The translations under genes were made by a program, and so were the position numbers. A stretch of DNA of 64,000 bases, taken from positions 147,113 through 211,112 of the forward strand of contig JANWYD010000001.1 in NCBI GenBank assembly GCA_025057155.1. The letters are read 5' to 3'. This document shows positions 1 to 4,196 of this stretch, one piece after another (within the stretch, counting starts at the first letter, position 1; each line of letters opens with the position of its first letter). The notes beneath the pieces were generated by a model. That model saw only the letters and a program-made list of their open reading frames with translations. It had not been told where the DNA came from and made no database searches. Source of the stretch: Chloroflexaceae bacterium (GTDB lineage: Bacteria; Chloroflexota; Chloroflexia; Chloroflexales; Chloroflexaceae).

Positions 1-3000
1 GGCGGGCGGAGCGGCGGGCGCGGCCTCGGCGGCGGCTCTGGCGGCCTCAAGCTGGGCGATCTCTTCGGGAGAGAGGCCGAGTTCTTCGAGGGAGAAGGGG
101 GTCAACTCGGGTTCGGCGGGCGGAGCGGCGGGCGCGGCCTCGGCGGCGGCTCTGGCGGCCTCAAGCTGGGCGATCTCTTCGGGAGAGAGGCCGAGTTCTT
201 CGAGGGAGAAGGGGGTCAACTCGGGTTCGGCGGGCGGAGCGGCGGGCGCGGCCTCGGCGGCGGCTCTGGCGGCCTCAAGCTGGGCGATCTCTTCGGGAGA
301 GAGGCCGAGTTCTTCGAGGGAGAAGGGGGTCAACTCGGGTTCGGCGGGCGGAGCGGCGGGCGCCGCCTCGGCGGTTGCCTCCGTCAGGCCGAGCGCGGCG
401 ATTTCCTCCGGCGACAGGCCCAGTTCCTCCAGTGAAAAGGGGGTGAGTTCAGCTTCCGCTGTCGGTGCGACGGCCTCTGATTCGCCCTCAGCTTCGACTT
501 CCTCCATATCAATAATCTCATCGCCATCGCGGATCTGAATGCCAGCCCGGTGCAGGGCCCAGCCAATCGCCTCGATCCGATCCGCCTCCGCCTCGGGGTC
601 AGAAACGACGGCGATGATGTCGGTCAGATCCACGTAGCCCTGGCGCCGCCCCAGGCTCATCAGCCGTTCGAGCGCCGCGTCACCCTGATTGGAGGGCGTT
701 GCGTGTGTGTCGTAATGCTCGTTCAGGATCGTCTCGAACTGGCCGAGATCAAGACCTTCCAGTTCTTCGGCGCTCAGCCCCAGTTCCCGGCTGGCCGTCT
801 GCCCGTCGAAGCTCTCGATGTCACCGAGGTCAAGATCCTCGAACGAGAATGGTTCGATATCTTCCGGGAGCGCTTCGTCTGGAGCGGACGGCTGGACCGT
901 GGCGCCGAAATCTTCTGGAGCGAAGGGCTTGAGACCCGAAAGGTCCAGCTCAGCGCCGGAGGCGGCGGCATTGATGCTCAGCTCGTCGGGAGCGAAGGGT
1001 TGCAGTTCTGGTTCTTCGCCCCTGGACCAGCCGGGCACAATCGTATCGCCAGTGGCCGGCGAGGGCAACTCGCCCCGCGCGGCGGCCTCAAGCTGGGCGA
1101 TCTCTTCGGGAGAGAGGCCGAGTTCTTCAAGGGAGAAGGGGGTCAACTCGGGTTCGGCGGGCGGCGGCTCGGGCGCAGAGGGCGCGGCGGCCTGCGCGGC
1201 GGCCTCAAGCTGGGCGATCTCTTCGGGGGAGAGGCCGAGTTCTTCAAGGGAGAAGGGGGTCAACTCGGGTTCGGCGGGCGGCGGCTCGGGCGCAGAGGGC
1301 GCGGCGGCCTGCGCGGCGGCCTCAAGCTGGGCGATCTCTTCGGGAGAGAGGCCGAGTTCTTCAAGGGAGAAGGGGGTCAACTCGGGTTCGGCGGGCGGCG
1401 GCTCCTTAACCCGCTCGGTCGCGCCCGGCGCTGGGGACGCCTCGCTGATCGGAACGTCCTCTTTGGGGAGCCGGAAGCCGCCCACGAAGCGATTCTGCCC
1501 GGCGGGCTCATCCTCGCGCAGTGAAACGTCATCGTGGGAGAAATAATCGCTCTGCGCAAGCTCTTCATCTGCAATCGGACGCAGCGGCTCGGGCTCCTGG
1601 AGCGGAAGGGCGGCGGCCCGCGCCTTTAGCCGATCAAAAATGCTTTCCTGACCGTGGGTTTCCTCCTCCTGCCGGCTGGCGAAGCCAGGCTGGGACTTAG
1701 CCGCAGGTTGCTGCCAACTATAGGCCGCTTTCGGCTCCGCTTCCTCCTCAGCCGGTGGAGGGGTCGTCGTCGCCGGTGGTTCGTCAATCGAAAACGGACG
1801 CAGCGAAGGCGGCAGCTCGCCTTCACCCGGTTCAAAGTTTGGGGCGTCGAGATCAAACTCCTCCAGCGAGAAGGGGGTAATTTCCCCCAGATCATTCTCG
1901 GCCGCTGTCGGTGTTTCGGCAACGGCGCCAAACGTGCTGCTCCCCCTTGATAGGTTCTCCTGTTGATTGCGTGAGGATGGCGAGGCTTCCCGCTCGCCGG
2001 CAGCGCCGGTCCGGGCGGCCTCAAGCTGGGCGATCTCTTCGGGAGAGAGGCCGAGTTCTTCAAGGGAGAAGGGGGTCAACTCGGGTTCGGCGGGCGGAGC
2101 CTCAGCGCCGGTCCGGGCGGCCTCAAGCTGGGCGATCTCTTCGGGAGAGAGGCCGAGTTCTTCGAGGGAGAAGGGGGTCAACTCGGGTTCGGCGGCGCTC
2201 TCGGCCGCTTCACCCGCAGCGGCTTCAAGCTGGGCGATCTCCTCTGAAGAAAGGCCCAGTTCTTCAAGGGAGAGAGGTTCCAGTTCAGGCTTGCCGGTTT
2301 CGAAACCGGCCTGGATCTGGCCGGTTTCGTCCAGATCATCGGTGGGCGTCTCGGCGAGGCTGGCGGGCAGGGCCACTGCTGGCGGCGGCGAAAGCGGCTC
2401 AGGTTCGGCGCGTAGCTGAGCGATCTCCTCTTCGCTCAAGCCGAGATCAGCGAGCGAGAACGGCTCCAACTCGGGCTCGGCGGTTGGCGTCGCGTATAGT
2501 TGCGGAGCGGCGCTATCAATATCCTCCAACGAAAAGGGGACGACCCCGCTGGACGTATCCAGATCCACCCCGCGCTCCGTAGGCACAGGAGGTTCCATCG
2601 CCAGCAGGCTGGCGAGCAGATCATCAGCGTCAAAGCCGCCCTGATCGGCGATGGAGGGTTCGGCGGCGCTCCAGGCGGGCGTCGGGCGCTCCGGCTGTTG
2701 CTGAACGGTCGCCACGGCGGCGGCGGCAACCGCGGCCTGGGCCGCACGGCGTTCGGCCTCTTCCCGGGCGCGCCGTTCGGCCGCTTCCCGGGTGCGCCGC
2801 TCGGCCCAGGCTGTTTCGTCCCAGGCGGGAATCTGCACCGCAGGTGCAGGCAGATCGGGAAGGGTCTCGAAGAGGGTGCGCGCGACGTGCTGGTAGGGAT
2901 CAAGGCGTTGGGCCTGACGCCAGAACCGCTCGCCATCGGGATCGCCGGAGGCCAGTTTAATATAGCCGAGCAACAAGTTGGCCTTCAGCACATCGGGGCG

Positions 3001-3579
3001 CAGGGCCAGGATCTCGCCGCACACCTCTGCAGCCTGCTGCTCCTGCTGGTTGCGCCAGAGAGCCTCGGCCAGGCCGACGCGGGCGTCGAAGCGCTCGGGC
3101 TGCTCTTCGATAACGCCGCGATATTCCTGGATGGCCTGCGGCAGCATATGCCCCTTGGCGTAGAGGCGGGCCAGGCCGGGCCGGCTCAGCCGCAGGGTGG
3201 CGCCTTCGCTGCCCCAGATATCGGTGTAGAGGCGCAGGAGCTGGCTGCGCAGTTCGGGCATATCCGGGCGCACTTCAAGGGCCTGCTCAAACTCGGCGAC
3301 CGCCTGATCGAGCTTGCCCTGCCGTTCGAACGTGATGCCCAGGCCGACATGGGCGGGAATATCCTCCGGGTCGGCGCGCAACACGCGCGTAAACGCTGCC
3401 TCGGCCTGCTCGAACTGTCGCCCGGCGAGATACGCCTCGCCGAGGATGCGGTGAGCCTCCAGGCTCTCCGGGAAATGCTCCAGGATATGCTGAGCCACAC
3501 CGATCGCCTGCTCGACCTTATTAGCTTCAAGGTAGCTGCGGGCCTGATCGTATGCAGCTTGCAGGCTCATCGTCGCCAT
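1..3579 (-). CDS. TPR protein with repeated PFSLEELGLSPEEIAQLE motifs and a sigma-1.1-like domain (3' end off the window)
   Basis: One uninterrupted minus-strand frame of at least 1193 codons runs off the left edge with no stop. The ATG at 3579 follows AGGAGG by about 7 bases. Residues 1-265 are helical TPR-type repeats (for example EAHRILGEAYLAGRQFEQA). Residues about 270-310 are an Ala/Arg/Glu-rich charged stretch. The remainder is acidic, Pro/Ala-rich linker carrying at least eight near-identical copies, plus diverged ones, of EPELTPFSLEELGLSPEE-IAQLE. Around residues 963-1026 a folded island, LERLMSLGRRQGYVDLTDII followed by a second helix pair, resembles sigma-70 region 1.1. No signal peptide or membrane segment is visible. 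The function is unknown; I infer a scaffold or regulator. The promoter candidate is at 3799-3828. Very confident it is a real gene, not confident of its role. Confidence 0.88.
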   Translation of the reverse strand, partial: MATMSLQAAYDQARSYLEANKVEQAIGVAQHILEHFPESLEAHRILGEAYLAGRQFEQAEAAFTRVLRADPEDIPAHVGLGITFERQGKLDQAVAEFEQALEVRPDMPELRSQLLRLYTDIWGSEGATLRLSRPGLARLYAKGHMLPQAIQEYRGVIEEQPERFDARVGLAEALWRNQQEQQAAEVCGEILALRPDVLKANLLLGYIKLASGDPDGERFWRQAQRLDPYQHVARTLFETLPDLPAPAVQIPAWDETAWAERRTREAAERRAREEAERRAAQAAVAAAAVATVQQQPERPTPAWSAAEPSIADQGGFDADDLLASLLAMEPPVPTERGVDLDTSSGVVPFSLEDIDSAAPQLYATPTAEPELEPFSLADLGLSEEEIAQLRAEPEPLSPPPAVALPASLAETPTDDLDETGQIQAGFETGKPELEPLSLEELGLSSEEIAQLEAAAGEAAESAAEPELTPFSLEELGLSPEEIAQLEAARTGAEAPPAEPELTPFSLEELGLSPEEIAQLEAARTGAAGEREASPSSRNQQENLSRGSSTFGAVAETPTAAENDLGEITPFSLEEFDLDAPNFEPGEGELPPSLRPFSIDEPPATTTPPPAEEEAEPKAAYSWQQPAAKSQPGFASRQEEETHGQESIFDRLKARAAALPLQEPEPLRPIADEELAQSDYFSHDDVSLREDEPAGQNRFVGGFRLPKEDVPISEASPAPGATERVKEPPPAEPELTPFSLEELGLSPEEIAQLEAAAQAAAPSAPEPPPAEPELTPFSLEELGLSPEEIAQLEAAAQAAAPSAPEPPPAEPELTPFSLEELGLSPEEIAQLEAAARGELPSPATGDTIVPGWSRGEEPELQPFAPDELSINAAASGAELDLSGLKPFAPEDFGATVQPSAPDEALPEDIEPFSFEDLDLGDIESFDGQTASRELGLSAEELEGLDLGQFETILNEHYDTHATPSNQGDAALERLMSLGRRQGYVDLTDIIAVVSDPEAEADRIEAIGWALHRAGIQIRDGDEIIDMEEVEAEGESEAVAPTAEAELTPFSLEELGLSPEEIAALGLTEATAEAAPAAPPAEPELTPFSLEELGLSPEEIAQLEAARAAAEAAPAAPPAEPELTPFSLEELGLSPEEIAQLEAARAAAEAAPAAPPAEPELTPFSLEELGLSPEEIAQLEAARAAAEAAPAAPPA
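43..384. repeat. tandem 114-bp repeat, three near-perfect units
   Basis: Units begin at 43, 157 and 271, exactly 114 bp apart and almost identical in sequence. They encode 38-residue units of the protein described at 1-3579. Further sequence of the same type continues to the left edge, and a diverged fourth unit starts near 385. The near-identity at synonymous positions suggests recent amplification or gene conversion. Confidence 0.95.
1084..1404. repeat. tandem 117-bp repeat, three units (last truncated)
   Basis: Units begin at 1084, 1201 and 1318, with a period of 117 bp (39 residues). The 69-residue-coding core is the same as in the 114-bp array, but the linker between cores differs, reading AAAQAAAPSAPEPPPAEP-like instead of ARAAAEAAPAAPPAEP. 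The third unit loses similarity near 1404. The array lies in the same reading frame as the other arrays. Confidence 0.93.
2017..2290. repeat. tandem 102-bp repeat, two close units and one diverged
   Basis: Units begin at 2017, 2119 and 2221, 102 bp apart (34 residues). The first two are close copies and the third is diverged. A fourth, weaker unit is near 2405. All encode the PELTPFSLEELGLSPEEIAQ core in the same frame with a shorter linker than the other two arrays. Confidence 0.9.
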
Positions 3580-4069
3580 GCTAACGCCTCCTGTTGTCCC
3601 TTGGGCAAGGTTTAAACCTGCTTGACGCACTGCCTCGCCACCCAATGGCCCCACAGCCGACCGACGGCATGCTGGCCAGGGTGTTGAATTGGAGTGTCGT
3701 GCAAGCCATTGGCGCTGAAACCTTGTCCGGGTCGCGATGGGGAAAGGGTGTGATCCCTGGTCAGGAGCACCATCTCAGGTGCCTGGCATAATGCGTCAAG
3801 TATACGACTGCCATCAAACCAGTGTCAAGGCGAAGATCAGATGTTTTCTGCGCCCAGGCGCTTAAAAATGAGGCAAAATCATTTACTCGCGTGCTATTGT
3901 AGCACGTCGGCGCAACCTGTCGCAACCACCTGGATAGGGCCACAATTCTGATCCTCTCGCTCACGGGCACGGACGAGGGCAACCCTGATCCACTCGCTCG
4001 CCTGCGCAGTCATTTTCGCCTTACGATACCTGATTGGTATGACGGGAGCATTACCGGCGACACACATAA
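3580..4069. other. intergenic region upstream of the TPR protein gene
   Basis: About 490 bp with no convincing gene. Short open frames here have no ribosome site and lack protein-like composition. The only structure I can support is the promoter at 3799-3828. Transcription from it would give an untranslated leader of about 210 nt before the ATG at 3579. Confidence 0.6.
3799..3828 (-). promoter_or_regulatory. sigma-70-type promoter for the TPR protein gene
   Basis: On the minus strand, a perfect TTGACA (3823-3828) and TATACT (3799-3804) are separated by 18 bp. Start of transcription would be near 3792. Confidence 0.7.
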
Positions 4070-4108: not shown

Positions 4109-4185
4109 TGGTCGGGGCGACTGGATTTGAACCAGCGACCTCCTGAACCCCATTCAGGTGCGCTACCGGTCTGCGCTACGCCCCG
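4109..4185 (-). tRNA. tRNA-Pro (anticodon GGG)
   Basis: A 77-nt cloverleaf with encoded CCA. The acceptor stem CGGGGCG pairs with CGCCCCG, the discriminator is A, the anticodon stem is CCTGA/TCAGG with loop ATGGGGT, and the T-loop is TTCAAAT. The anticodon occupies plus-strand 4149-4151 and reads CCC/CCU proline codons. The first base C1 is typical of bacterial tRNA-Pro. It is flanked by its own promoter (4197-4225) and hairpin (4070-4095), so it is probably a single-gene transcription unit. Confidence 0.96.
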
Positions 4186-4196
4186 TGTTCCAATGG

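Follow-up and report, generated by a model that had tools for sequence, protein, structure and literature searches.

This locus raises the question of what a sigma-70 region 1.1, a domain usually seen as private to primary sigma factors, is doing inside another protein. The protein is encoded on the minus strand at the left end of a 64,000-nucleotide stretch of DNA from a Chloroflexaceae bacterium (the window, that is, the whole stretch analysed; positions 147113 to 211112 of contig C1 in a 5.1 Mb assembly), and it joins tetratricopeptide repeats (TPRs), an acidic linker and many copies of a short motif to a domain resembling region 1.1. We found that this domain is a genuine homologue of sigma-70 region 1.1 and that it is kept in most genomes of the order Chloroflexales. 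As for the protein that carries it, we see about even chances that it serves as scaffold in a Chloroflexota module for polarity or surface motility, based on an MglA-type Ras-like GTPase and roadblock/LC7 proteins. The initial annotation of this DNA, whose residue and codon coordinates refer to the in-window part of the gene, had described an open frame of more than 1190 codons with TPRs, an acidic linker and motif copies; this frame proved to be real, and it runs past the window edge to a total of 1473 codons. The gene and the domain lie as follows (window coordinates).

1 to 3579, minus strand: part of the giant TPR scaffold gene inside the window; the final 843 bases of the gene (stop codon and an assembly gap included) lie to the left of the window
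484 to 681, minus strand: sigma-70 region 1.1-like domain, residues 967-1032, from PF03979 (28.9 bits), AlphaFold2 and structural comparison

Identity of the sigma-like domain

The match of the domain to PF03979 lay above the gathering cut-off of 22.5 bits (E 1.1e-6). All 19 rows of an alignment of the domain from this gene and 18 relatives (A1) also matched PF03979 at E up to 0.1, the best at 9.7e-10. When a profile of the domain alignment was compared with solved structures, sigma factors ranked first (best 2k6x, sigma factor RpoD, E 2.4e-4) and made up 19 of the 21 sequences listed, the other two being unrelated, at E 0.24 and 0.94. AlphaFold2 modelled the domain alone as helix-strand-helix-helix-hairpin, the same arrangement as in region 1.1, with a mean predicted local distance difference test score (pLDDT) of 84.3. 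The best structural match of this model was region 1.1 of Bacillus subtilis sigmaA (5mww; Z 7.3, root-mean-square deviation 4.1 over 61 residues), and E. coli sigma 1.1 was also among the best rows. Indeed, the first six structural rows were sigma factors, at Z 7.3 to 4.0, the sixth being tied with unrelated rows (Z 4.0 or less). A longer domain model had a similar outcome, with sigma factors in the first four rows. A Z below 8 is weak by itself and agrees here with the sequence match. Foldseek E-values were weak (best 0.38, at probability 0.95, for the domain model and 0.76 for the longer model), so that it takes rank, Z and sequence together to support the fold. The resemblance to region 1.1 pointed out in the initial annotation was thus borne out by both the profile search and the structure model.

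The scaffold differs from a primary sigma factor in that the domain is embedded in a 1473-residue protein in which no Pfam family for sigma regions 2, 3 or 4 was found at E up to 1; a primary sigma factor has these regions in the same protein. Two further PF03979 matches in the same genome lie in frames of 408 and 413 residues, which is sigma-factor size. With a net charge of -13 over 77 residues, the scaffold domain is itself acidic and lies within an acidic linker. Moreover, it carries sequence marks of its own. An aspartate replaces a threonine (GYVD for GYVT) in 23/23 scaffold domains, the threonine being present in 19/20 aligned sigma factors. An RDGDE hairpin occurs in 20/23 scaffold domains and in none of the 20 sigma factors, two of which have DGDE and one EGDE. 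The fair count for this hairpin is 20/23, since RDGDE served as the pattern selecting the 19 rows of A1, in which its invariance is circular; two loci (L044 and L053) were excluded from A1 because of this selection. When placed in an unrooted tree together with region 1.1 of 20 sigma factors from Chloroflexota, the scaffold domains (the 19 of A1) formed one clade with support of 0.948, on a short alignment of about 70 columns. This clade would suit a single capture of the domain. Region 1.1 of three sigma factors from genus g4 (L137, L138 and L139) has a scaffold-like DGDE or EGDE hairpin, and the tree keeps them apart from the scaffold domains.

A comparison with phage families led nowhere, yielding just one sigma match at chance level (E 0.045) and one unknown family. 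In the open literature searched (one open library), we found no report of region 1.1 inside other proteins, or of this gene.

Distribution and gene neighbourhood

We surveyed 82 genomes of Chloroflexales, 56 of them of high quality, and 400 Chloroflexota genomes drawn evenly from a larger group. The sigma-like domain query had a match of at least 56 bits in 55 of the 82 genomes of the order; no other row exceeded 38 bits, and the frames concerned were 111 to 598 residues long. At 98 bits or more, it was found in 34/400 Chloroflexota genomes, all of them Chloroflexales, with every other match listed below 48 bits. The N-terminal TPR domain occurred once per genome in 73/82 genomes of the order (55/56 of high quality). 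The initial annotation had proposed looking for the same architecture across Chloroflexota; it was found, in one order.

Within the order, the parts of the protein vary by lineage. Five loci of family f3 have the TPRs and 2-4 motifs without the sigma-like domain. Five loci of genus g34 have no motifs and no clear sigma-like domain, at most a trace (4.9 bits, L092), and the one locus read from the two g27 genomes has the domain with the motifs absent. Across 21 loci with the sigma-like domain, the number of repeat copies by one pattern ranged from 5 to 24. Eight loci outside the order had no sigma-like domain and no PFSLEEL motif. It looks as if the domain was a later addition within the order, or was lost in f3. 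The repeats change by lineage, and the pair of a TPR gene and a roadblock gene reaches beyond the order. One TPR protein outside the order, encoded before a roadblock gene (L117, 5635-9393), has a short repeat of its own, EEPDW.KQ, in about eleven copies by eye; the other TPR proteins there have different repeats or none obvious.

The constant neighbours of the scaffold gene are a roadblock/LC7 gene, directly downstream on the same strand, and then an NDK gene, each in 21/21 loci with the sigma-like domain. PF03259 was found in 6/6 downstream roadblock proteins scanned (E 2e-17 to 2.4e-16); the one in the window genome has 115 residues and consists of a single Robl_LC7 domain (61.7 bits, cut-off 23). 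Compared with the window genome, the 20 other loci showed 84-97% identity in roadblock, against 62-84% in NDK, 56-81% in the TPR domain and 34-53% in the C-terminus, indicating that roadblock is the most constrained part. The roadblock gene was also present in 4/5 f3 loci, in 0/5 g34 loci and not at the g27 locus. From these neighbourhood counts we excluded L097, L098, L100 and L101, which stop at contig ends (L101 with the sigma-like domain), as well as L099, which has roadblock and NDK and a broken frame; L056 was counted despite a run of N that splits its frame. Roadblock relatives were present in 78/400 genomes, 37 of them in the order, which leaves 41 outside it. At all eight loci read from these 41, a TPR protein was encoded directly upstream of roadblock, scoring 132-202 bits with the N-terminal profile at seven loci and only 42 at L118. 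No description of this gene pair was found in the portions of the literature that our search covered. The pair offers a way into the study of polarity and gliding among filamentous Chloroflexota.

A candidate polarity or motility scaffold and its alternatives

A small Ras-like GTPase gene occurs together with roadblock genes elsewhere in the window genome. Two of its five Robl_LC7 matches adjoin this GTPase gene on contig C9 (L128:4301-5487), which appears MglA-like from its sequence and its setting beside roadblock genes. In NCBIfam, the only match of this GTPase is to small_GTP, below threshold; the roadblock protein adjoining it matches MglB at 7.8e-20, likewise below the curated cut-off. 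Further Robl_LC7 matches lie on C3 and C12, and a second GTPase gene on C15. At E 1e-30, the GTPase was present in 67/82 genomes. Of the 15 without it, 13 were the complete sets of g34 (11 genomes) and g27 (two genomes), and the other two, G010 and G066, are incomplete. The scaffold-type roadblock was missing from 19/82, namely the same 13 genomes of g34 and g27 plus G002, G004, G024, G050, G061 and G062. Among the 56 high-quality genomes, GTPase was absent from 9 and roadblock from 11, these being the same 9 plus G024 and G050. T2SSE ATPases (E 1e-40) were present in 69/82 genomes and missing from exactly the 13 that also lack roadblock and GTPase; at the six loci read from these 13, the repeats were gone, with 0 motifs. 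This pattern of co-absence predicts that the scaffold acts with an MglA-like GTPase.

Two known proteins offer a comparison. SgmX, the effector of MglA-GTP in Myxococcus xanthus, is described in passages of PMC7519303 as having 1,060 residues, five N-terminal and three C-terminal TPRs, and an unmatched middle. In Bdellovibrio bacteriovorus, MglA binds the TPR protein Bd2492, according to parts of PMC3983030. Both are TPR proteins, as the scaffold is, and as far as these passages of the two papers go, they work with MglA and lack known domains in the middle. In the scaffold, the N-terminal TPRs are clear, the C-terminal TPR_21 match is sub-threshold, and the middle contains the sigma-like domain. 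Unlike SgmX and Bd2492, it has a repeat array and a sigma-1.1-like domain, and its gene adjoins roadblock and NDK genes instead of tamAB. The downstream roadblock protein differs from MglB, which acts with a partner, RomY (in the part of PMC9481161 concerned), as it scored 14 to 19 bits with the NCBIfam MglB model (cut-off 200). It passes the Robl_LC7 model and fits the 'orphan' MglB-like proteins mentioned in PMC4316618, in the section available.

By analogy to these MglA partners, we infer that the best reading is an SgmX-like scaffold of an MglA/roadblock polarity or motility module, which took up a sigma-1.1 domain. Its TPR ends would bind the GTPase or motor parts, as SgmX does, and the PFSLEELGLSPEEIAxL copies could be multivalent docking helices that gather a partner into a cluster. 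This partner might perhaps be roadblock dimers, binding between motif and roadblock being a guess. The sigma-1.1-like domain would have been recruited as an additional protein-binding module. A model including the flanking motifs, which bears on docking of the repeats on the sigma-like domain, was of low confidence in the flanks (block pLDDT of about 40-74; predicted template-modelling score 0.39).

Several observations weigh against an SgmX-like scaffold. An MglB gene would be expected to have an MglA-family GTPase gene within four genes, but no small GTPase gene lies near the scaffold's roadblock gene on C1; at E 1e-30, the window genome has two such matches, on C9 and C15. G002 and G028 have only a distant GTPase (46-47% identity), and the roadblock of G028 has diverged (51%). 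The co-absence is suggestive, but it reflects no more than one or two losses, in small-genome genera from which much else has probably disappeared. G050 (99% complete) is an exception to the pattern: its TPR protein (L091) has motifs, and the genome encodes the GTPase and T2SSE while lacking a roadblock of this type. Nor does the sigma-like domain track the module, since g27 keeps the domain without roadblock and f3 keeps roadblock without the domain. The T2SSE matches may be secretion ATPases. A PilT-type ATPase was tried as a motility link and set aside: none was present in the 82 genomes at E 1e-60, so that it did not separate the genomes as T2SSE did. Because it is absent, a Myxococcus-like pilus cycle is not implied. 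Finally, Pfam did not score the C-terminus of the scaffold as TPR (TPR_21 reached only 11.8 bits, cut-off 25.5).

In sigma factors, region 1.1 works together with sigma regions 2-4, binding RNA polymerase and keeping it from DNA. The initial annotation had suggested that a scaffold carrying region 1.1 could bind RNA polymerase or sigma; the identity of the domain stood, and binding gained no support, as the neighbours are roadblock and NDK and regions 2-4 are absent. A transcription-linked scaffold, in which the domain would bind the RNA polymerase core and either tether the enzyme, compete with it or sequester it, is in our view unlikely. True homology and fold speak for it, as does the acidity of the domain within an acidic linker. 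It also has a precedent in the delta subunit of RNA polymerase: parts of PMC7749165 describe its N-terminal domain as similar to sigma 1.1 and bound to the surface of the polymerase, beside an acidic disordered tail. Delta is small and polymerase-bound; for the 1473-residue scaffold, such binding is a hypothesis. The polymerase reading keeps a real chance, since delta shows that a sigma-1.1-like globule next to an acidic tail is able to bind polymerase even when it is not part of a sigma factor. Against it stand the RDGDE hairpin, which sets the scaffold domains apart from the aligned sigma factors, the five f3 loci, which have kept the protein apart from this domain, and the lack of any transcription gene among the annotated neighbours (five in the window genome and roadblock in six genomes, the others being clustered only). 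We hold it very unlikely that both ideas apply, i.e., that a polarity or motility hub in filamentous Chloroflexales has turned the sigma-factor domain to a new use, holding either RNA polymerase or the primary sigma factor. If true, surface-motility state and transcription would be physically coupled.

A scaffold that serves the envelope or cell division of the filament and has no relation to MglA, with an FtsW/RodA gene as the relevant partner, appears quite unlikely. An FtsW/RodA-like gene (PF01098, E 9.8e-91) is indeed the second gene after NDK in the window genome, and an FtsW/RodA-like sequence cluster is present in 12/21 loci, which is less constant than roadblock and NDK; this explanation also leaves the co-absence with GTPase and T2SSE unexplained. 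Least probable is a repeat array that is a neutral tandem expansion without a binding role, which would leave the TPR part and the roadblock gene as the sole elements of importance. Such an expansion would be in keeping with the variable copy number, with copies nearly identical at the DNA level within the window genome, and with the other repeats, or none obvious, of the TPR proteins outside the order. Raw pairwise codon differences among 11 repeat copies were, however, 234 synonymous to 59 non-synonymous, an excess that would suit a translated frame under selection. Positions left free in the search pattern were also conserved over 174 pooled copies, with A at position 14 in 157 and L at position 16 in 146, and the first residue was P in 174/174 though the pattern allowed L and A.

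Anatomy of the gene and the assembly gap

The remaining features of the gene are the following.

2815 to 3579, minus strand: N-terminal TPR domain, residues 1-255, with the conserved stretch LSRPGLARLYAKG (Pfam TPR models; alignment A2, 13 sequences)
706 to 2814, minus strand: long acidic, proline-rich linker, residues 256-958, net charge -117 (composition)
2001 to 2273, minus strand: PFSLEELGLSPEEIAQL repeats, cluster 1, DNA period 102 (DNA periodicity and motif count)
1077 to 1404, minus strand: PFSLEELGLSPEEIAQL repeats, cluster 2, DNA period 117 (DNA periodicity and motif count)
1 to 441, minus strand: PFSLEELGLSPEEIA repeats, cluster 3, DNA period 114, continuing into the assembly gap left of the window (periodicity and repeat search)
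3587 to 3592, minus strand: ribosome-binding site AGGAGG, 7 bases 5' of the ATG (read from the sequence)

Several Pfam TPR models matched the N-terminus, the best at 63.2 bits. The motif PFSLEELGLSPEEIAQLE was present in 8 exact copies, which are among the 16 found by a looser 7-residue pattern, and the DNA periods of the repeats were 114, 117 and 102 bases. A 26-residue repeat query against the genome gave 13 matches, 12 of them in the scaffold gene and one elsewhere at E 0.89. After the third cluster follows a conserved C-terminal stretch of about 105 residues, which is TPR-like by eye.

The frame begins with an ATG at window 3579-3577 and is open to the left edge of the window, continuing to genome position 146270. 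A gap of 7 N in the assembly (genome 147106-147112) abuts window base 1; because it falls inside the repeats, the repeat copy number there is uncertain. The frame is open across this gap. The initial annotation had named interruption of the frame by assembly error as an outcome that would undo it; this was not so, and open frames of 1551-1885 amino acids were also found in four single-contig genomes (G006, G007, G009 and G064), so that the frame is no artefact and only the repeat number is in doubt. Judging from the repeat period, the missing bases probably exceed the Ns shown. Upstream of the gene, window 4110-4190 on the minus strand resembles a tRNA gene by eye.

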